DNA of 37,837 nt, taken from assembly GCA_902633515.1 (NCBI GenBank), contig CACPGB010000004.1, positions 1 to 37,837 of the forward strand. Direction: 5' to 3'. How positions within the stretch are numbered: position 1 is the first letter of the stretch; every line of letters begins with the position of its first letter. A program made the translations under genes and the position numbers. Origin of the DNA: an uncultured Pelagibacteraceae bacterium (GTDB lineage Bacteria; Pseudomonadota; Alphaproteobacteria; Pelagibacterales; Pelagibacteraceae). Positions 10,428 through 35,433 of this stretch are shown here, one piece after another. The notes under the pieces were generated by a model, which worked only from the letters and a program-made list of their open reading frames with translations, was not told where the DNA came from and made no database searches.

Positions 10428-12533
10428 ATGAATTCAACCATCGAAACTATTCTTTTATATACTATAGGCGCAGGATTATTATCTATAGTTTATGGATATT
10501 TAACTGGAAAAAATATTTTAAATTCAAGTGCAGGAAATGCTAAAATGCAAGATATTGCATCAGCAATTCAAATTGGTGCAAAAGCTTATCTAGCAAGACA
10601 ATATAAAACGATTGCCATAGTTGGTGTAGTTGTTTTGATTATTGTAAGTTTTGCTTTTAGTATGCTTGTTGGATTGGGTTATCTTATTGGTGCAACTCTA
10701 TCAGGTATAGCTGGATATGTTGGGATGTTAGTTTCTGTAGAAGCAAATGTAAGAACTGCTGAAGCATCTAAAAAAGGATTGGCTAGCGGCCTATCTGTGG
10801 CTTTTAAATCTGGAGCGGTAACTGGTATGTTGGTTGCTGGTTTAGCATTATTATCAATAGCAGTTTATTATTATTTATTATTAAAATTTAACGTTGATGA
10901 AAGGGAAATTGTTAATGCTCTTGTTGCACTTGGTTTTGGTGCATCATTAATTTCTATTTTTGCAAGACTGGGTGGTGGAATATTCACAAAAGGAGCTGAT
11001 GTAGGAGCTGACTTAGTTGGAAAAGTTGAAGCTGGTATACCAGAGGATGATCCTCGAAATCCAGCTGTAATTGCTGACAATGTGGGTGATAATGTAGGTG
11101 ATTGTGCAGGTATGGCAGCTGATTTATTTGAAACATATGCTGTTACTATTGTTGCTACAATGGTCTTGTCATCTATTTTTTTCCAGGGTGACATGTCAAT
11201 GATGATTTATCCTTTAACTATTGGTGGAGCTTGTATTTTAACATCTATATTAGGCACATTTTTTGTAAAATTAGGTAAAAGTAAAAATGTAATGAATGCT
11301 TTATACAAAGGTTTTGTAGTTTCAGCTATTTCGTCGTTAATAATTCTTTATCCTGTTACTGATTATGTATTAGGTTTAGACAATACATATAACTTAGAAA
11401 ATAAAGTTTTTTCAGGTATGAGTTTATACTATTGTGGGGTAATAGGTTTAGTAATAACAGGCTTATTAATCTGGGTTACTGAATACTACACAGGAACTAA
11501 TTACAGACCTGTTAGAAGTGTAGCTAGTTCATCTACCACAGGTCATGGAACGAATGTTATTCAAGGACTAGCTGTTTCACTTGAAGCTACAGCAATTCCA
11601 GCTTTAATTATTGTTACTGGAATATTAGCGACCAATCATATTGCTGGTCTTTATGGAATTGCAATTGCAGTCACAACTATGTTGGCTTTAGCTGGAATGG
11701 TTGTTGCACTAGATGCTTATGGTCCTGTTACTGATAACGCTGGCGGTATAGCTGAAATGTCTAAATTACCAAATAATGTGAGAAAAACTACAGATGCCCT
11801 TGATGCTGTCGGAAACACAACAAAAGCTGTAACAAAAGGTTATGCTATAGGTTCAGCAGGATTAGGAGCATTAGTTCTTTTCGCAGCATATACAGAAGAT
11901 ATAAAGCACTTTTCTAAAGAAGCAGGATCTGCACTTGAGGGAATTGTTGTTACTTTTGATCTATCAAATCCATATGTTGTCGTTGGTTTATTGATTGGTG
12001 GAATGCTTCCATATTTATTTGGTTCAATGGGTATGCAGGCTGTTGGTAGAGCTGGTGGTGCTGTAGTTGTTGAAGTAAGAAGACAATTTAAAAAATATCC
12101 AGGCATAATGAAGAGAAAACAAAAACCAGATTATGCAAAATTGGTTGATTTATTGACTGTTGCGGCAATTAAAGAAATGATAATTCCATCTTTATTACCT
12201 GTTTTATCTCCAATTGTTTTATATTTTATTATTTTTGCCATTGGAGGACAAGTTGCAGCATTAGCATCAGTTGGTGCAATGTTGCTTGGTGTAATTATCA
12301 CTGGTCTTTTTGTTGCTGTTTCTATGACTGCTGGAGGAGGCGCTTGGGATAATGCAAAAAAATATATCGAAGACGGAAACCATGGTGGAAAAGGATCAGA
12401 AGCTCATAAAGCCGCTGTAACAGGAGATACAGTAGGGGATCCCTATAAAGATACTGCAGGACCAGCAGTTAATCCTATGATTAAGATAACAAATATTGTT
12501 GCCTTACTATTATTAGCTGTTATCGCTGGCTAA
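10428..12533 (+). CDS. hppA: Membrane-bound H+-translocating pyrophosphatase, K+-independent type suggested
   Basis: [70 protein letters not shown]. Confidence 0.97.
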
Positions 12534-13005
12534 TTTCTTTTCTTTTCTTGGCCCTAACACCTAGAGGATCGTTTATTTTTTGCCTCATACTAGACATAAA
12601 ATCATAAATAAATGAGTTTCTTGCAAAAGTTGCCTCAGTCGTTTCTTCTACGACTTTTATTTTCTGCATATCATCCATATTATAAAAATCTTTTTTTTTA
12701 AGAATACCAAAATTATCAATTTCTAAAACAAGTACATCGTTTTTGAATATTTTCATTCTACCTAAATTTCTTAATTTTGATTGGGTCTGTTTCCTTTCAA
12801 TATATATCCATATATCATTGTCAAATTTACTTCGTGTGGATGGTGTACCTAAAATTTTTCTCACATCATTACTTGTAGATTCATCTATAATTAGTTGTTT
12901 TTGTTTTTTTTCAAGAAAGGGAACGCCATGGTGTTTGACAACCTTTTTAAAAGAACAATTTGTTACTACTAATGTAAAAAAAAATATATATAGTATTTTT
13001 ATCAT
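12520..13005 (-). CDS. bamE: Outer membrane assembly lipoprotein BamE/SmpA family
   Basis: Signal peptide with lipobox-like [52 protein letters not shown]. Confidence 0.85.
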
Positions 13006-13471
13006 GGCAGAAAATTATATTAATATTTATAACAATTTAATCAATTACTCTAGAAATAAAAAACTATATAGTTCACTAAATAGAGAAGATAATTTTTCTG
13101 ATCGTTTAACATTTTTTCTTATTCACTTTGCTTTCTTTTTGAAAAATTATAAAGACAAAGAAAATAAGGATTTTTTACAAAAAATTTACGATTTTAATTT
13201 TAGACAACTAGAATTAAGTATTCGTGAGATAGGCTATGGTGATCAATCAATAAATAAAAAAATGAAAGTTTATTTAAATTTATTTCATGCTATTGTTTCA
13301 GAAATACACTTTTGGGATGAATTGGATAAAAATGAAAAATTAAAAAAACTATCCTTTTTTTTAGATGATTTTAAAGAAATCAATATTTTGGTTGATTATT
13401 TTGATGATTTTGACCAAAATTTGAAGAAAAAAAATTTGAATTTTTTTTTAAAAAGTGTAATTAGTCCATAA
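13004..13471 (+). CDS. Ubiquinol-cytochrome c chaperone (CBP3)-like family protein; start moved from 12743 to ATG 13004
   Basis: [38 protein letters not shown] resembles PF03981; upstream 87 codons of the tracked ORF are antisense to bamE. Confidence 0.65.
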
Positions 13472-15355: not shown

Positions 15356-17464
15356 ATGAAAATAGCTTCAATACTTCCTTATAAAGAAAATTATACTAAA
15401 CATGGTGCTGGAGCTGTCTCCTTATGGATTAGTGAATTTTTGAGAGATTCCAAGTATAAAAAAGATACTTTTATTTTTGGAAATACACTTAAAAAAAAAT
15501 TTTTAACTAAAAACTACATTAATATTAATATAGAAAATATAAATTCTAAACTACACAGCACTACAAAGAAGTACTCAGAAAAAATTATACGAACAATTAA
15601 AGATTTTGAGTTTGATATAATTGAATTACATAATAGACCGATTATGGTAAAAAGCTTTTTTCAAAGGACTAATTCGAAAATAATTTTATACTTTCATAAT
15701 GACCCAACAACAATGAAAGGAGCTAAAAGTATCGAAGATCGTTTATACTTATTAAAAAATGTAGATAAAATAATCTTTATATCTTCATGGGTTAAAAAAA
15801 AATTTTTTAAAGGTCTGCCAATTTTGTCAGATAATAAAACAAGTATAATATATCATAGCATAGACCCTTTTAAAAAAAAACCTAAGAAAAAAAAACAAAT
15901 TATTTTTGTTGGTAAGCTCAATGAATCTAAAGGATATGATTTGTATTGTAAATCAATGTTTAAGATTTTGAATTTAAATAAAAAATGGCAAGCATTTTCA
16001 ATTGGTGAAGAAAAAAGATTTAAAGATTTTCCAACCCATGAAAGGCATAAAAATCTTGGACAGATAACTCATAAAAGAGTTCTGGACATATTAAGTAAAT
16101 CTGAGATAGCTATAATACCCTCTAGATGGGAAGAGCCATTTGGTCGAACAGCACTGGAGGCATCGTCACGTGGATGTGCAACAATTATTTCTAATTCTGG
16201 TGGCTTAATTGAGACAACAGATCATTCAATAGTTTTAAAAAAATTAGATGTTAAAAACATCGTATCTGAAACTTTAAAGTTAATTAGAAATAATAACTTA
16301 AGAAAAAATATACAATTTAAAAGTAGAAAATTTATTAAACATAAATTAAAAGAAAATTCAAAAAAAATTGATTTAATGAGACTTTCATTATTTCCATTTA
16401 CAAATATTAATATTAATAAGAAAAATAAATTAAGGATATTAAATATTTATAACGTAGCCCAAAAATTAAATCATAGGATTTATAACTTATCTCTTGGTAA
16501 AAAATTTACTAACGGATTTATTAGAAATGGTCACGATGTCATTGAAATAAGTGATCGGGACTATATGAAGCAAAACAAGTCTTTTGGATTTTTTAATTTA
16601 GAAAATAAATTTAATCAATATTTAAAAGAAACTTTTAAAAATTATAATCCAGATTTAATAATTTTTGGACATACTGAGAATATTAATAGCGAAATAATTG
16701 ATGATTTTAGATCTCTTAATAAAAATGTAATAATCTCTCAATGGAATGAAGATCCTTTAATGACTAATTTAACTGAAACTTCAAAAAATATAAATAAATT
16801 AAAAAATTTTATTCCATTAGTTGATCATTCTTTTATTACAACAAATCCAAGTATACTTAATATTTCTAAGAATAGTTTAAAGAATGTTCATTTCTTCATG
16901 ACACCAGTAGATAAAAATATTGAATGTTTTGATGTTTATAAACTCAATCCTACTAATGATGTTTTTTATGCTATGAGCCATGGTGTTAATCGAGGCACTT
17001 TAAAAGATAGAAAAACAGACAATAGAGCAAACTTCTTAAAAAAACTTATAAATAAAAGCAATGGTATTAAATTTGATTTTTATGGTTTTGGTAAACAAGA
17101 GCCAATTTGGGGTAACGATTTTTACAAGTCATTATTAAATTCCAAAATGGCCCTAAATTTGAGTAGAGGTAATCCAACTAAACACTATTCAAGCAATAGA
17201 ATTGCTTCACTTATGGGAAACGGATTGTTAGTTTTCATAGATAAAAAGGTTCAAATGGACTATTTTTTTAACCCAAATGAAATCATTTCATATGATTCTA
17301 TAGATGATCTTGCAAGTAAAATTAAGTATTACAAGATGAATGATAAATTAAGAATAAAAATTGCAAAAAAAGGTAAAGAAAAATACTTTAAATTATTCAA
17401 TGAAACAAAGGTTTGTAAATATATAATTGATAAATCTTTAGGAAAAAAAGCATCTTTAATTTAA
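15356..17464 (+). CDS. Two-domain glycosyltransferase (N-terminal GT4-like, C-terminal second GT/CgeB-like domain)
   Basis: N-half: RWEEPFGRTALEASSRGCATIISNSGGLIET; C-half: KMALNLSRGNPTKHYSSNRIASLMGNGLLVFIDKK. Confidence 0.8.
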   Translation: MKIASILPYKENYTKHGAGAVSLWISEFLRDSKYKKDTFIFGNTLKKKFLTKNYININIENINSKLHSTTKKYSEKIIRTIKDFEFDIIELHNRPIMVKSFFQRTNSKIILYFHNDPTTMKGAKSIEDRLYLLKNVDKIIFISSWVKKKFFKGLPILSDNKTSIIYHSIDPFKKKPKKKKQIIFVGKLNESKGYDLYCKSMFKILNLNKKWQAFSIGEEKRFKDFPTHERHKNLGQITHKRVLDILSKSEIAIIPSRWEEPFGRTALEASSRGCATIISNSGGLIETTDHSIVLKKLDVKNIVSETLKLIRNNNLRKNIQFKSRKFIKHKLKENSKKIDLMRLSLFPFTNININKKNKLRILNIYNVAQKLNHRIYNLSLGKKFTNGFIRNGHDVIEISDRDYMKQNKSFGFFNLENKFNQYLKETFKNYNPDLIIFGHTENINSEIIDDFRSLNKNVIISQWNEDPLMTNLTETSKNINKLKNFIPLVDHSFITTNPSILNISKNSLKNVHFFMTPVDKNIECFDVYKLNPTNDVFYAMSHGVNRGTLKDRKTDNRANFLKKLINKSNGIKFDFYGFGKQEPIWGNDFYKSLLNSKMALNLSRGNPTKHYSSNRIASLMGNGLLVFIDKKVQMDYFFNPNEIISYDSIDDLASKIKYYKMNDKLRIKIAKKGKEKYFKLFNETKVCKYIIDKSLGKKASLI

Positions 17465-17468
17465 AAAT

Positions 17469-18422
17469 CTAAATTTTAATTTTATTAAGTGCGTTATTTT
17501 TAAAAATATTTGCTTCCTTTATATATCTTCTTACCATTTGTGTTGTTTTATGACCTGTCATAGCCATAATACTTCTTTCATCTGCACCAGATTCTGCCGC
17601 GGCCGTAGCAAAACCCGACCTTAGACTATGACCAGCAAAATTTTTATTTTCAATTCCTGATAGATTTAAATATTTTTTCATTATTAAAACTACAGATTGA
17701 TCAGTTAGTCTTTTGTTAGTTAAAGATGATCCTTTAGAAAATTTTCTAAAAATAGGTCCCGATTTAATTTGTGAAATTTCCAACCATTTTTTTATATTTG
17801 TAACTGGACAATAGGTTTCATTAGTGAAGTAGGGCAGTCCTTTTATCATACCCTCGCCAAATTGATCAGTTTTTGATCTTTTAATGGTAATTTTGAGTCC
17901 TTCAGGGACAAATTCCAAATCTTCATGATCAATTGATATAAGTTCTTTTCGTCTAAATCCGCCTCCAAAGCCAACTAATAAAATTGACTTGTCCCTGTAT
18001 TTCTTAATTTCCTGAATTTTTTGTTTATCTATTACATTAATTATTAATTTTAAATGATTGATTAATAATGGTTTTTTACCTTTTTGAATGCTCCCTTTTA
18101 CTCTTCTTATACCCATTAAATTCTCGACAATTATAGGATGTTTTGTATCTAAATAATGCCCTTTAAGCTTATGAACCATACTTATTGACACCAGTCTTCT
18201 TCTCAGAGTACTGATTTTTGAATTTTTCGAAAGATGAGTTAAATATAAAGAAACTACTTTAGGATCAGATGGTAGTGAATTTAACCCATGTTTAAAACAA
18301 AAAGCGGCAAAATCTCTAAAATCTGATTTATAAGCTCTTAAAGTATTATTAGATTTAGAATTTTTTAAATTATTTAAAGTTGCCTCATGCAGCGATTTTA
18401 GATCTGTTGTTAAATTATTCAT
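17469..18422 (-). CDS. Tyrosine recombinase / phage-type integrase
   Basis: Catalytic set visible: GGFRRKELISIDHEDL (Arg), FAGHSLRSGFATAA (HxxR), TGHKTTQMVRRYI (His, Tyr); N-terminal SAM-like domain. Confidence 0.93.
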   Translation of the reverse strand: MNNLTTDLKSLHEATLNNLKNSKSNNTLRAYKSDFRDFAAFCFKHGLNSLPSDPKVVSLYLTHLSKNSKISTLRRRLVSISMVHKLKGHYLDTKHPIIVENLMGIRRVKGSIQKGKKPLLINHLKLIINVIDKQKIQEIKKYRDKSILLVGFGGGFRRKELISIDHEDLEFVPEGLKITIKRSKTDQFGEGMIKGLPYFTNETYCPVTNIKKWLEISQIKSGPIFRKFSKGSSLTNKRLTDQSVVLIMKKYLNLSGIENKNFAGHSLRSGFATAAAESGADERSIMAMTGHKTTQMVRRYIKEANIFKNNALNKIKI

Positions 18423-18425
18423 AAC

Positions 18426-18460
18426 ATTACTATTGATAACAATTAATTATCAATAGTAAT
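18426..18460. repeat. Perfect 14-bp inverted repeat with 7-bp spacer, ATTACTATTGATAA-caattaa-TTATCAATAGTAAT
   Basis: Read directly; 3 bp upstream of the recombinase start codon. Confidence 0.95.
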
Positions 18461-18504
18461 ATATTAAGTGATTTTTAATGTCAATAGTTTAAATATAAAA
18501 TAAT

Positions 18505-18681
18505 ATGGGTTCAGTAGATGGAGAAATTCCAGCAGTATGGTTCCTAATCACATCTGTTGGATTTATTATTTTGAGTTCAATTCAATATAAGAATCACGGA
18601 AAAAGCATTGAAACTATCTTTTTATCTATAATGGCTATTTTGTTTTTGATAAGTTATTTTATATTAGTTTTTAAATCTTAA
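18505..18681 (+). CDS. Small hydrophobic protein, 58 aa, two predicted TM segments (below ORF-track cutoff)
   Basis: MGSVDGEIPAVWFLITSVGFIILSSIQYKNHGKSIETIFLSIMAILFLISYFILVFKS*. Confidence 0.55.
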   Translation: MGSVDGEIPAVWFLITSVGFIILSSIQYKNHGKSIETIFLSIMAILFLISYFILVFKS

Positions 18682-18777
18682 ATTATCCCCAATATTCACA
18701 ACTAATTTTAAAATTTTTAAGAATCAATTATAAAGTGATACATGATTTCTTTTTAATTTGTTATTATGCACTTAATT

Positions 18778-18958
18778 AAGGGGCAACTCTTAACTGGCCG
18801 GTTGGAGAAAAGCCGAGAGGTACAATTCCAAAGGGCAGAAAGCTCTGCAAAGCATCGCTGAACATGCAGAGTGGTGGGCATGGCGGTAGCGCATCAACGA
18901 CGTGCCAAAACAACTGTTCTTTGCACCTTTAAAAAGTGCAAGGAAACAGGTGTTTTTT
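18778..18958 (+). ncRNA. Candidate structured RNA of unassigned family (body about 18781-18906 plus terminator)
   Basis: About 56% G+C by manual count over 126 nt in an otherwise AT-rich window; several complementary segments; no ORF; ends in an intrinsic terminator. Confidence 0.7.
18911..18958 (+). terminator. Intrinsic terminator
   Basis: CTGTTCTTTGCAC / GTGCAAGGAAACAG stem (one bulged A) followed by TTTTTT. Confidence 0.85.
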
Positions 18959-21472: not shown

Positions 21473-22764
21473 TAATTATATAGTCTGATCAATGTTGGAA
21501 ATTTAAGAATATTTTTATTTTTTTTAAATATTGATAAACAATTTCTTGAGTTAATTTCTGTTGTTTTATGGGTGATAATCACAATTGTTGCTTTTTTATT
21601 CTTCTTATCAGGTGTTTGAATTATTCTTTTTACCGAAATTTTATATTTTGCTAATCTATTTGTTATTAATGAGAGAACTCCTTGTTTATCTTTGACCTCA
21701 AACCTAAGATATAAGGAATTTGTATATTTGTCATTGTTGAATGGTTTAATTGACTTTCTTTTATTGTATGAAATACCAAAAGGATATTTAGAATTACCCC
21801 TTAAAATAGATAATAGATCAGATAATAAAGATGAAGATGTTGGACCAGGTCCAGCGCCCTCACCTTGTAGAACACTTTGACCTATTGGTTTACCTTCTGT
21901 AATAACTGCATTCATAACACCATTAACATTTCCTATATATGTGTTTTTACTTACCAAACATGGGTGTACTGTCTCAAATAGTTGACCATTAATAATTTCA
22001 GAAATTCCGAGTAATTTAACTCTAAGACCTAATTGATTAGCAATCTTAATATCCTCTAATTTAATATTTTCAATACCTTCCATTATGCATTTACTTTTAG
22101 AAATTTTTGTATTGAAAGAAAGAGCAGATAATATTCTAATCTTCGCAAAAGCGTCAAAACCATTTAGATCTAATTTTGGATTACCTGGCTCCGCATAGCC
22201 AAGTTTTTGCGCTTTTTGTAAAACCTTATCAAAAGTTTCATTACTAATTTCCATTTCTGATAAAATATAATTAGTTGTACCATTCAGTATACCATAAACT
22301 TTACTAATTCTATTTGTTGCTAAACCCTCTTTGATTGTTCTTAAAATAGGAATTCCTCCGGCAACGGAAGCCTCAAACTCTAAATTTACTTTATTTTTTT
22401 CTGCTAGCTTAGAGAGATAATCTCCGTGTTTTGCTATTAGCGCCTTATTAGGAGTTATAACATTAATTTTATTTTGTAAGGCAATTTCTACAACTTTTTT
22501 TGAAATACCGTCCGATTGACCTACACATTCAAATAAAACATCTATTTTTTTTTCTGTAAAAATTTTAAGAGGATTTGAATAAAAAATTTTCTTATTAATA
22601 TTGAAACGTCTTTTTTTATTTATTTTTTTTGCTGATATAGCGATAACTTTAATTTTTTTTCCTGTTTTAATCTCAATTTCTTTTTTTTTTAGGTTTAATT
22701 CATTATATAAGTATATGCCAACTTGACCTAATCCCACTAATGCAATGTTAATATTTTTATTCAT
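21472..22764 (-). CDS. hom: Homoserine dehydrogenase with C-terminal ACT domain
   Basis: ALVGLGQVG, EASVAGGIPILRTIKEGLATNRISKVYGILNGTTNYILSEM, GEGAGPGPTSSSLLSDL. Confidence 0.95.
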   Translation of the reverse strand: MNKNINIALVGLGQVGIYLYNELNLKKKEIEIKTGKKIKVIAISAKKINKKRRFNINKKIFYSNPLKIFTEKKIDVLFECVGQSDGISKKVVEIALQNKINVITPNKALIAKHGDYLSKLAEKNKVNLEFEASVAGGIPILRTIKEGLATNRISKVYGILNGTTNYILSEMEISNETFDKVLQKAQKLGYAEPGNPKLDLNGFDAFAKIRILSALSFNTKISKSKCIMEGIENIKLEDIKIANQLGLRVKLLGISEIINGQLFETVHPCLVSKNTYIGNVNGVMNAVITEGKPIGQSVLQGEGAGPGPTSSSLLSDLLSILRGNSKYPFGISYNKRKSIKPFNNDKYTNSLYLRFEVKDKQGVLSLITNRLAKYKISVKRIIQTPDKKNKKATIVIITHKTTEINSRNCLSIFKKNKNILKFPTLIRLYN

Positions 22765-25061: not shown

Positions 25062-25079
25062 AATTTTCATATTAAATCG

Positions 25080-25137
25080 GTAGGCATTTGAACTATATTG
25101 TGCGCCTTGTACTTATCAAAAGCACTAAAAAAGGAGC
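25080..25137 (+). promoter_or_regulatory. SAM-V riboswitch aptamer overlapping the metY Shine-Dalgarno
   Basis: AGGCATTTGAACTATATTGTGCGCCTTGT...GCACTAAAAAAGGAGC; CCTT can pair with the AAGG of the SD immediately before ATG 25141. Confidence 0.85.
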
Positions 25138-25140
25138 AAA

Positions 25141-26469
25141 ATGAAAAAAAAAAGAAATAATCCAGAAACCATTGGTTTACATGGAGGTGAGTATAGAAAA
25201 GATCCCGCCACCAATGCTGTTACAGTTCCAATATACAGAACAACTGCTTATCAGTTTGATAATACAGAACATGCAGCAAAACTTTTCAAGCTCGAAGAAT
25301 TTGGGAATATTTATACAAGAATAATGAATCCAACCAATGATGTTTTAGAAAAAAGATTAGCAGAATTAGAAAGTGGTTTAGCTTGTTTAACTGTTTCTTC
25401 TGGTCAGACTGCTTCAACATTTGCCGTGTTAAATGTAGCACAAGCAGGTGATAATATAGTTAGTTCAACTGATTTATATGGAGGAACTGTGTCTCTGTTC
25501 ACAAACACTCTAAGCAAATTAGGTATTGAAATTCGTTACGCAGACCCATTAGATCCTAAAAATTTTGAAAAACTTGTCGACGATAAAACAAGAGCTTTTT
25601 ACGGAGAAACACTTCCAAATCCTTATTTGAGAGTTTTTCCTATAAAGGAAGTTTCAGATATAGGAAAAAAATATAGTATCCCTCTAATTATGGATAATAC
25701 TGCTGCACCAGTTATTTGCAGACCGATTGAACACGGTGCAGCTGTTACAATCCACTCTTTAACTAAGTATATAGGAGGTCATGGTACTGCTGTTGCAGGT
25801 AGTATAGTAGATGGTGGTAATTTTGACTGGACTGCAGATCCTAAAAGACAACCATTATTTAATGAACCAGATCCTAGTTATGGTAATGTGATATGGGGTA
25901 AAGCAGTTCCAGAATTAACAGGAGCAAATATACCATTTGCTATTAGAGCTAGAGTTTGTTTATTGAGAGACTTAGGTTCGTCATTAGCACCTGACAATGC
26001 CTTTTCTATTATACAAGGGTTAGAAACTTGTGCTTTAAGAATGAAACAACATTGTCAAAATGCAAATAAAGTTGTCGAATTTTTATCTAAACACAAAGAA
26101 GTTTCAAAAGTAATATACTCAACTAAGCATGAAAAAAAGATATCAGATAGGGCAAAAAAATACCTCACAGGTGGAAATGGTGCAATGGTTGGAATTGAAC
26201 TCAAAGGTGGTATTGAAGCTGGTAAAAGATTTATTGAGTCTTTAAAGATGTTCTATCATGTTGCTAATATTGGTGATGCAAGAAGTTTAGCTACTCACCC
26301 AGCTAGTACAACTCACAGTCAATTAAGTGAAAATCAACTTGCAGCATCAGGTGTTACTCAAGGTTATGTAAGATTATGTATAGGTATTGAACACATAGAT
26401 GATATAATTTCGGATCTAAATCAGGCTTTAAATAGATCTTCTAGGGGTAATTTAAAAGCAGTAAGTTAA
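25141..26469 (+). CDS. metY: O-acetylhomoserine aminocarboxypropyltransferase (sulfhydrylase)
   Basis: ETIGLHGGEYRKDPATNAVTVPIYRTTAYQFDN; TIHSLTKYIGGHGTAVAG; MRLDRDLGSSLAPDNAFSIIQGLETCALRM-type motif. Confidence 0.95.
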   Translation: MKKKRNNPETIGLHGGEYRKDPATNAVTVPIYRTTAYQFDNTEHAAKLFKLEEFGNIYTRIMNPTNDVLEKRLAELESGLACLTVSSGQTASTFAVLNVAQAGDNIVSSTDLYGGTVSLFTNTLSKLGIEIRYADPLDPKNFEKLVDDKTRAFYGETLPNPYLRVFPIKEVSDIGKKYSIPLIMDNTAAPVICRPIEHGAAVTIHSLTKYIGGHGTAVAGSIVDGGNFDWTADPKRQPLFNEPDPSYGNVIWGKAVPELTGANIPFAIRARVCLLRDLGSSLAPDNAFSIIQGLETCALRMKQHCQNANKVVEFLSKHKEVSKVIYSTKHEKKISDRAKKYLTGGNGAMVGIELKGGIEAGKRFIESLKMFYHVANIGDARSLATHPASTTHSQLSENQLAASGVTQGYVRLCIGIEHIDDIISDLNQALNRSSRGNLKAVS

Positions 26470-34668: not shown

Positions 34669-35433
34669 ATTTAGAGCAAGCCCATCAAAAGCTGGTATTA
34701 TATTTTTAGGTAAAATTTTCTTTAGAACTTTGTAATCTAATACTGGAGATAAATTGGTTAAAATTGCTTTTCTTGGTTTGAACTCTCTAATCATAGAAAG
34801 GGAGGTCTCTAAATTAAAATGTGATGGATGGTAGTTATACCAAAGGCAATCTATTACTAAAAATTTTAAATTTTTAAAATATCTGAAATCTTTTCTATAA
34901 ATTTTACTTACATCACTAATATAAGCCAATTTCTTATCAATAATAAAGCAATTAGATTTAACTTTTCCGTGTTCAACTTTAATTGATTTAACAGAAATTT
35001 TTTTCTTATTATTAGATGTAAAAAAAGTTTTAGGTAATTTATGCAATTTTAATGTAGCAGGATACTCTCTAGAGAAACTTTTAAATATATATGAAAAATT
35101 ATTTTTCAAATATTTAGAGGTAAATGGATCTGCATAAACATCGATTTGATTTTTGCTACTTATATAAAATGATCTTAAATCATTAATTCCATGTGTTTGA
35201 TCACCATGCATATGTGAAAAAAGCACTTTATTTATCTTTTTAATCTTATGTCTTAATAGTTGTTGACGTAAATCAGGTGATGTATCAATTAAAATATTTT
35301 GACTAGAGGTTTTTAATAGTGCAGAACATCGTGTTCTATAATTTTTCTTAATTTTAGGATCACAATTACCAAAAAAACCATCTGGCCTTGGTACACCCAT
35401 TGAACTACCACAACCAAGTATTATAAACTTCAT
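34663..35433 (-). CDS. MBL-fold metallohydrolase (PhnP-like)
   Basis: ILGCGSSMGVPRPDGFFGNCD, LIDTSPDLRQQLL, VLFSHMHGDQTHGINDLR. Confidence 0.9.
   Translation of the reverse strand: MKFIILGCGSSMGVPRPDGFFGNCDPKIKKNYRTRCSALLKTSSQNILIDTSPDLRQQLLRHKIKKINKVLFSHMHGDQTHGINDLRSFYISSKNQIDVYADPFTSKYLKNNFSYIFKSFSREYPATLKLHKLPKTFFTSNNKKKISVKSIKVEHGKVKSNCFIIDKKLAYISDVSKIYRKDFRYFKNLKFLVIDCLWYNYHPSHFNLETSLSMIREFKPRKAILTNLSPVLDYKVLKKILPKNIIPAFDGLALNL

Follow-up and report, generated by a model that had tools for sequence, protein, structure and literature searches.

The inverted repeat at positions 18426–18460 of the window (the whole stretch of 37,837 nucleotides analysed here) is very probably the dif site of a single-recombinase Xer system in the Pelagibacteraceae (SAR11), the family to which the window and the related loci belong. 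SAR11 are the most abundant bacteria of the sea. The reading is based on the conservation of the site, its single copy, its position at the replication terminus, the lone recombinase beside it, the presence of FtsK gamma, the lack of XerC and XerD, and mimics of the site in phages; from these observations we infer binding, the positions of cleavage, activation by FtsK, resolution of dimers, autorepression and recombination itself.

Sequence and conservation of the site

Read directly, the window has ATTACTATTGATAA-CAATTAA-TTATCAATAGTAAT at this position, that is two perfect 14-bp arms around a 7-bp centre, and the edge of the repeat lies 3 bp from the ATG of a gene for a 317-aa tyrosine recombinase on the minus strand (Table 1), so the geometry given in the initial annotation was confirmed on rereading. 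No other inverted repeat in the window combines arms of at least 12 bp with a spacer of at most 20, none with arms of 14 bp or more arose in 30 Markov shuffles of the 37.8-kb window, and the assembly holds a single copy of the palindrome when up to three mismatches are allowed. The palindrome is real and not a product of chance, in agreement with the initial view that it was improbable by chance.

The perfect 14-bp form is a minority one, being present in just seven of the 101 orthologous loci that were read (51 distinct sequences) because the promoter-proximal arm varies at two positions. The conserved object is a pair of 11-bp arms with a conserved 7-bp centre, the arm proximal to the start codon being nearly invariant. 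A 35-bp element of the form ATTACTAAYGATAA-TTAATKG-TTATCAATAGTAAT (11-bp arms, 7-bp centre) precedes the recombinase in every one of the 101 loci, and across these the element reads TATTACTAAYGATAA-TTAATTG-TTATCAATAGTAAT on the gene strand. Information is about 2 bits over most of the block and lower outside it, where the flanks drift (same 101 loci and 51 distinct sequences). Comparison of homologous loci had been proposed as a check on the palindrome, and the element was present at all 101 orthologous recombinase loci; inversions, insertions, occupied or empty variants and prophage at the site were not seen in the loci read. In three of four loci from distant genera, whose recombinases are about 53–62% identical, both arms are changed jointly to TTCCGATAA-N7-TTATCGGAA, and such symmetric co-variation is what would be expected if a single protein bound the dyad.

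For counting sites in whole chromosomes a loose pattern (GATAA-N7-TTATC with three mismatches) was swamped by chance matches and a stricter core pattern was used instead. This gave one site per complete chromosome, adjoining the recombinase, in 11 of 11, plus two matches with one mismatch elsewhere. A recurrent second match, CTATTGATAAAGCCAGATTATCAGTAGAAA, gives IDKARLSVE when translated in one frame and probably belongs to coding sequence. The site itself has the form of its class, being a non-coding, low-G+C imperfect inverted repeat with 10–11-bp arms and a short centre, present once per chromosome. The genes upstream of it vary among loci, as might be expected if it served to invert DNA or shuffle genes at the terminus in a programmed way and not to resolve dimers, but a site that occurs once in each complete chromosome has nothing to pair with for an intramolecular inversion, and we consider this explanation very improbable.

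Table 1. Coordinates of the site, the recombinase gene with its promoter, and neighbouring features in the window
Feature	Position	Strand	Evidence or remarks
Single Xer-like tyrosine recombinase, 317 aa (P0001, provisionally XerP)	17469–18422	−	PF00589 (71 bits) and PF02899
Dif-like site, conserved block TATTACTATTGATAA-TTAATTG-TTATCAATAGTAAT (gene strand)	18426–18461	−	Found before each orthologue that was read and once in each complete genome; conservation by column drops outside the block
Start-proximal arm TTATCAATAGT, nearly invariant	18429–18439	−	Orthologous loci
7-bp centre TTAATTG, presumed strand-exchange region	18440–18446	−	Almost unchanged in 101 loci, with TTAATGG the most frequent variant
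Promoter-proximal arm ACTATTGATAA, the variable one (ACTAATGATAA, ACTAACGATAA, ACTAGTGATAA, ACTATTGATAA)	18447–18457	−	Orthologous loci
−10 box TATTAC, which shares bases with the promoter-proximal arm in the outer part of that arm	18456–18461	−	TATTAC/TATATT/TAATAT/TATTAG with 17-bp spacing across genera
−35 box TTGACA of the recombinase promoter, overlapping the reported third half-site	18479–18484	−	Spacing to the site constant; 17 bp upstream of the −10 box
ORF of 58 aa, membrane-like and divergent from the recombinase gene; neighbour, outside the system	18505–18681	+	Direct reading; same start in many, not all, orthologous loci
IMES-2 structured RNA, neighbour	18769–18908	+	Rfam RF02035, 140.6 bits
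SAM-V riboswitch	25073–25139	+	Directly 5′ of an O-acetylhomoserine sulfhydrylase-like gene (25141–26469)

Among the neighbours of the site, the 58-aa ORF is replaced by other genes in the loci that lack it. IMES-2, an RNA of marine metagenomes, lies roughly 0.1–0.9 kb upstream of the site both here and in eight of 16 further loci scanned (L032, L033, L036, L042, L049, L054, L065 and L094), and may be an RNA associated with the SAR11 terminus.

The recombinase is a chromosomal core gene

The gene beside the site, called an integrase in the initial annotation, is not a prophage gene. Its orthologue is the only conserved PF00589 protein in all 11 complete Pelagibacteraceae chromosomes, which represent four genera, and R157, K184, H265, R268, H291 and Y300 (the catalytic set, assigned from the family pattern) are invariant in 20 diverse orthologues. 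A tyrosine recombinase with the full catalytic set that is kept as a chromosomal core gene, and no second conserved Xer recombinase in any of the 11 complete genomes, are both marks of the single-recombinase class. Across the family the recombinase is present in 235 of 297 genomes (mostly drafts), nearly always in one copy. It is absent from eight draft genomes of the same genus that are at least 90% complete, and five family drafts checked with PF00589, G012 (99%) among them, yielded no orthologue; these absences may reflect gaps in the assemblies, which is how we read them. Extra PF00589 proteins occur sporadically in three of the 11 complete genomes. These second tyrosine recombinases, at G017:C1:676679, G009:C1:1204798 and G063:C1:11153, are possibly those of islands or prophages.

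P0001 does not belong to the Xer families for which it was scored. It reaches 65 and 71 bits against curated cut-offs of 335 and 330 for XerC and XerD and 51 bits against the XerS model cut-off of 267, and for XerH no chain was found by sequence at E ≤ 0.001 among solved structures, with a weak fold match only. In the tree P0001 is split from XerC/XerD with 100/100 support, on long branches, and is placed beside phage tyrosine recombinases, also on long branches, so that no claim of phage origin is made from this placement. The structure model is of modest quality (pLDDT 78, pTM 0.57); its best match is Cre, followed by XerH and XerA.

These results bear directly on the possibility that the palindrome is the attachment core of an integrated phage or island, with the adjacent gene as its integrase. 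An integrase next to its core has the same geometry, and the distant, long-branched tree neighbours of the protein are phage enzymes. Against this the gene is single-copy and core throughout the family, no second copy of the core was found in the complete genomes, no recombinase in the phage records exceeded about 28% identity to P0001, and the neighbouring genes in the window are housekeeping genes, which leaves this alternative with scarcely any probability. A phage or island integrase of patchy distribution with two flanking cores was likewise sought and not found, and is largely refuted by the family-wide presence of the gene. Of the suggestions in the initial annotation, the wider one of a crossover site for a tyrosine recombinase has the best support, with family-wide pairing of site and gene, co-variation of the arms, the terminus position and the phage mimics in its favour. 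Of the analogues that it named (lox, dif and the lambda core) dif is the appropriate one, since the gene is chromosomal core and not a prophage integrase.

Position at the replication terminus and comparison with the sister family

In all 11 complete genomes the distance from the site to parB is 0.46–0.50 of the chromosome, that to dnaA 0.42–0.50 and that to ftsK 0.45–0.50. In five of six genomes sampled (G003, G022, G005, G026 and G040) cumulative GC skew reaches its maximum at the recombinase, to within the sampling step of 60–65 kb. In the sixth, G078, the maximum is about 115 kb from the site, an offset of an order that is not unusual, since distances of up to 90 kb between difH and the GC-skew shift have been published (PMC2731167). 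Within the window the cumulative G−C count peaks at 17450, which is 1 kb from the site, and the direction in which most genes run is reversed at this peak. Skew over a local 3-kb span about the site carried no information on this point. Location at the replication terminus (by skew in five of the six sampled, opposite parB in 11 of 11), linkage of the site to its recombinase gene, and an FtsK with a gamma domain (PF09397, about 100 bits) in all 11 complete genomes are further features of the class that are found here. KOPS of the E. coli type (GGGNAGGG) were counted 24 times toward the site and five times away from it, a bias not beyond that of the strands in general.

The sister family in the same order provides a contrast. 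No P0001 orthologue was found in it, and two PF00589 proteins were detected in seven of the eight genomes searched; those of G297 score 316 bits for XerD and 314 bits for XerC, slightly under the curated cut-offs, as against the 71 and 65 bits of P0001. As the sister family has XerC and XerD and lacks the orthologue, the Pelagibacteraceae appear to have exchanged a two-enzyme system for one unrelated enzyme.

Overlap with the recombinase promoter

The −10 and −35 boxes of the recombinase promoter lie at a fixed spacing relative to the site (Table 1), and from their positions the transcription start should fall inside it, a start within 18440–18456 being predicted. Because the site covers both the −10 box and this expected start, bound recombinase should repress its own promoter, and autorepression is likely, as we infer from the arrangement of these elements. 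It also means that part of the conservation of the site could be regulatory. The initial suggestion of an autoregulatory operator is thus probably also true, but it does not account for the terminus position. Were the dyad an operator only, bound by the recombinase or by another dimeric repressor that shuts the promoter, with no recombination taking place there, the overlap with the −10 box and expected start, and a distance to TTGACA that stays the same in every genus read, would be accommodated. Left unexplained would be the constant position at the terminus, the lack of any other Xer-like protein in this family when its sister has both XerC and XerD, the near-invariance of the 7-bp centre and the arm mimics in phages that do not carry the gene, and we therefore regard the operator-only explanation as improbable.

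Two other elements had been suggested in this region. A third half-site at 18481–18488 dissolves into the −35 box TTGACA, which it overlaps; its extra bases, at positions −37 to −34, carry 0.5–0.8 bits compared with 1.4–2.0 for TTGACA, and as they are so poorly conserved it is probably not a recombinase half-site. The other was a hairpin in the 5′ UTR by which translation of the recombinase would be blocked or tuned. RNA of the window sequence does fold to −18 kcal/mol (z −3.0), ending 3 nt from the ATG, but of the 51 distinct sequences 16 have a broken pair at the sixth position from the centre and 40 at the position after it, perfect 14-bp arms are confined to the seven of 101 loci noted above, and with a promoter start inside the site most of the upstream arm would go untranscribed. 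Since most orthologues have lost pairing in the inner part of the arms, an RNA hairpin is disfavoured as the selected feature, and we think it most unlikely.

Mimics of the site in pelagiphages

When a 39-bp consensus was compared with 50,697 phage records the top-listed match was the pelagiphage Greip EXVC021P (E 4e-3), in an intergenic position. Among phages of the HTVC010P type, Greip, HTVC024P, HTVC100P, HTVC035P and HTVC106P match at 18–21 of the 22 arm positions in the syntenic gap upstream of the terminase gene, which was equalled in 0 of 300 shuffles for each; the first two came from the search itself and the last three are independent. The mimic of Greip lies at 22465–22498 and that of HTVC024P at 35155–35185. 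Weaker mimics are present in HTVC203P (5 of 300 shuffles), HTVC034P (9 of 300) and HTVC010P (17 of 300), and the same gap in HTVC028P, Skadi-5, Lederberg and HTVC204P shows no arm match beyond chance. An Xer-exploiting mobile element (IMEX) would combine a dif mimic with the lack of a recombinase of its own, and the HTVC010P-type phages may be of this sort: the mimic is present, and no integrase is annotated in Greip or HTVC024P. The mimics support the idea that the arms are recognised as sites, but are not proof of it.

Inspection by eye indicated that several phage gaps seem to hold another dyad, with TTTCCGATAA, which is how the arms read in other genera of SAR11. Two adjacent dyads in the gap upstream of the terminase, one of the TTTCCGATAA and one of the ACTAAYGATAA type and so like the arms of different SAR11 genera, are seemingly found at L313 220–290, L318 180–240, L324 1510–1570 and L294 4000–4070.

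Pelagiphage terminase was detected in only one of 399 genomes of the genus, as two matches on one contig, so that stable integration is unsupported and, on this measure, integrated copies of the HTVC010P type at dif were not found. The two matches (G509:C20:1236–2348 and 12110–13222) are identical-scoring copies in opposite orientation on a draft contig, which may be a phage contig or an assembly palindrome. Resolution of dimers or circularisation of phage genomes by the host enzyme is as likely as integration.

Proposed mode of action and significance

In the system as we picture it, the arms ACTAWYGATAA and TTATCAATAGT, of 11 bp each, would be occupied by two recombinase monomers. If sister chromosomes became fused by homologous recombination into a dimer carrying two copies of the site, FtsK would bring both copies together at the septum, and the recombinase, with cleavage predicted at the borders of the 7-bp centre TTAATTG, would exchange strands across this centre to give two monomers; while bound to the site it would also hold its own promoter in check. 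The phages would carry dif mimics, often apparently in tandem with one for each arm type, and the hijacked host recombinase would resolve, circularise or transiently integrate their genomes. The combined proposal, that XerC/XerD were replaced by an unrelated self-regulating recombinase with dif in its own promoter and that HTVC010P-type pelagiphages hijack this recombinase through dif mimics, is put forward tentatively, its chances being slightly short of even.

P. ubique has been listed as a species without a dif/Xer system (Carnoy and Roten, 2009; PMC2731167), Pelagibacter is not named in the text of a dif prediction paper of 2011 (PMC3025954), and no description of a SAR11 dif was found in the literature searched, subscription journals lying outside its coverage. 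If the reading of the palindrome as dif holds, this would be a new form within the single-recombinase Xer/dif class, for which we use the provisional names XerP and difP. SAR11 would then not have lost dif/Xer but replaced it with one gene and one site, the position of dif on SAR11 chromosomes could be given to the base pair, and a Cre-like tool that is minimal by nature and acts on a 35-bp AT-rich site may become available. There would also be a testable answer to the question of how pelagiphages in which no integrase is annotated could engage with the chromosome of their host.

Comparison with known systems

The best reading by analogy is of a system that would work like XerS/difSL and XerH/difH, with an unrelated recombinase. 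XerS/difSL of Streptococcus and Lactococcus likewise consists of one chromosomal recombinase and a dif-like site that adjoins its gene at the terminus, and its dependence on FtsK is known (PMC5357621). XerS is however 356 aa long against the 317 aa of P0001, and difSL has an 11-bp centre and other arms. XerH/difH of Helicobacter and Campylobacter is also a single-recombinase system in a proteobacterial lineage without XerCD, and difH usually adjoins the xerH gene near the GC-skew shift (PMC2731167), as is the case here, whereas XerH has 353–363 aa and the difH arms (TGAAAAC/TTTTCAAA) are unrelated. With XerCD/dif, the system of most bacteria, whose XerC and XerD are present in the sister family, the site shares two 11-bp arms with a short centre, the inner ATAA…TTAT, the terminus position and FtsK gamma, but XerCD/dif needs two recombinases and has a 6-bp centre in place of the 7 bp found here. 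Cre/loxP of phage P1 also resolves dimers with one enzyme on an inverted-repeat site, and Cre is the best structural match of the model, yet it is a plasmid-prophage system with an 8-bp spacer and Cre is only 18% identical to P0001. XerL of the Legionellales has its catalytic tyrosine at 387 and is hence longer than P0001. Its history offers a precedent for the present case in that the lineage was said to be without dif/Xer and a single-recombinase system was then found: the Legionellales were declared without dif/Xer in 2009, and XerL was shown in 2022 after a dif-mimicking mobile element had exposed the system (PMC9765430).
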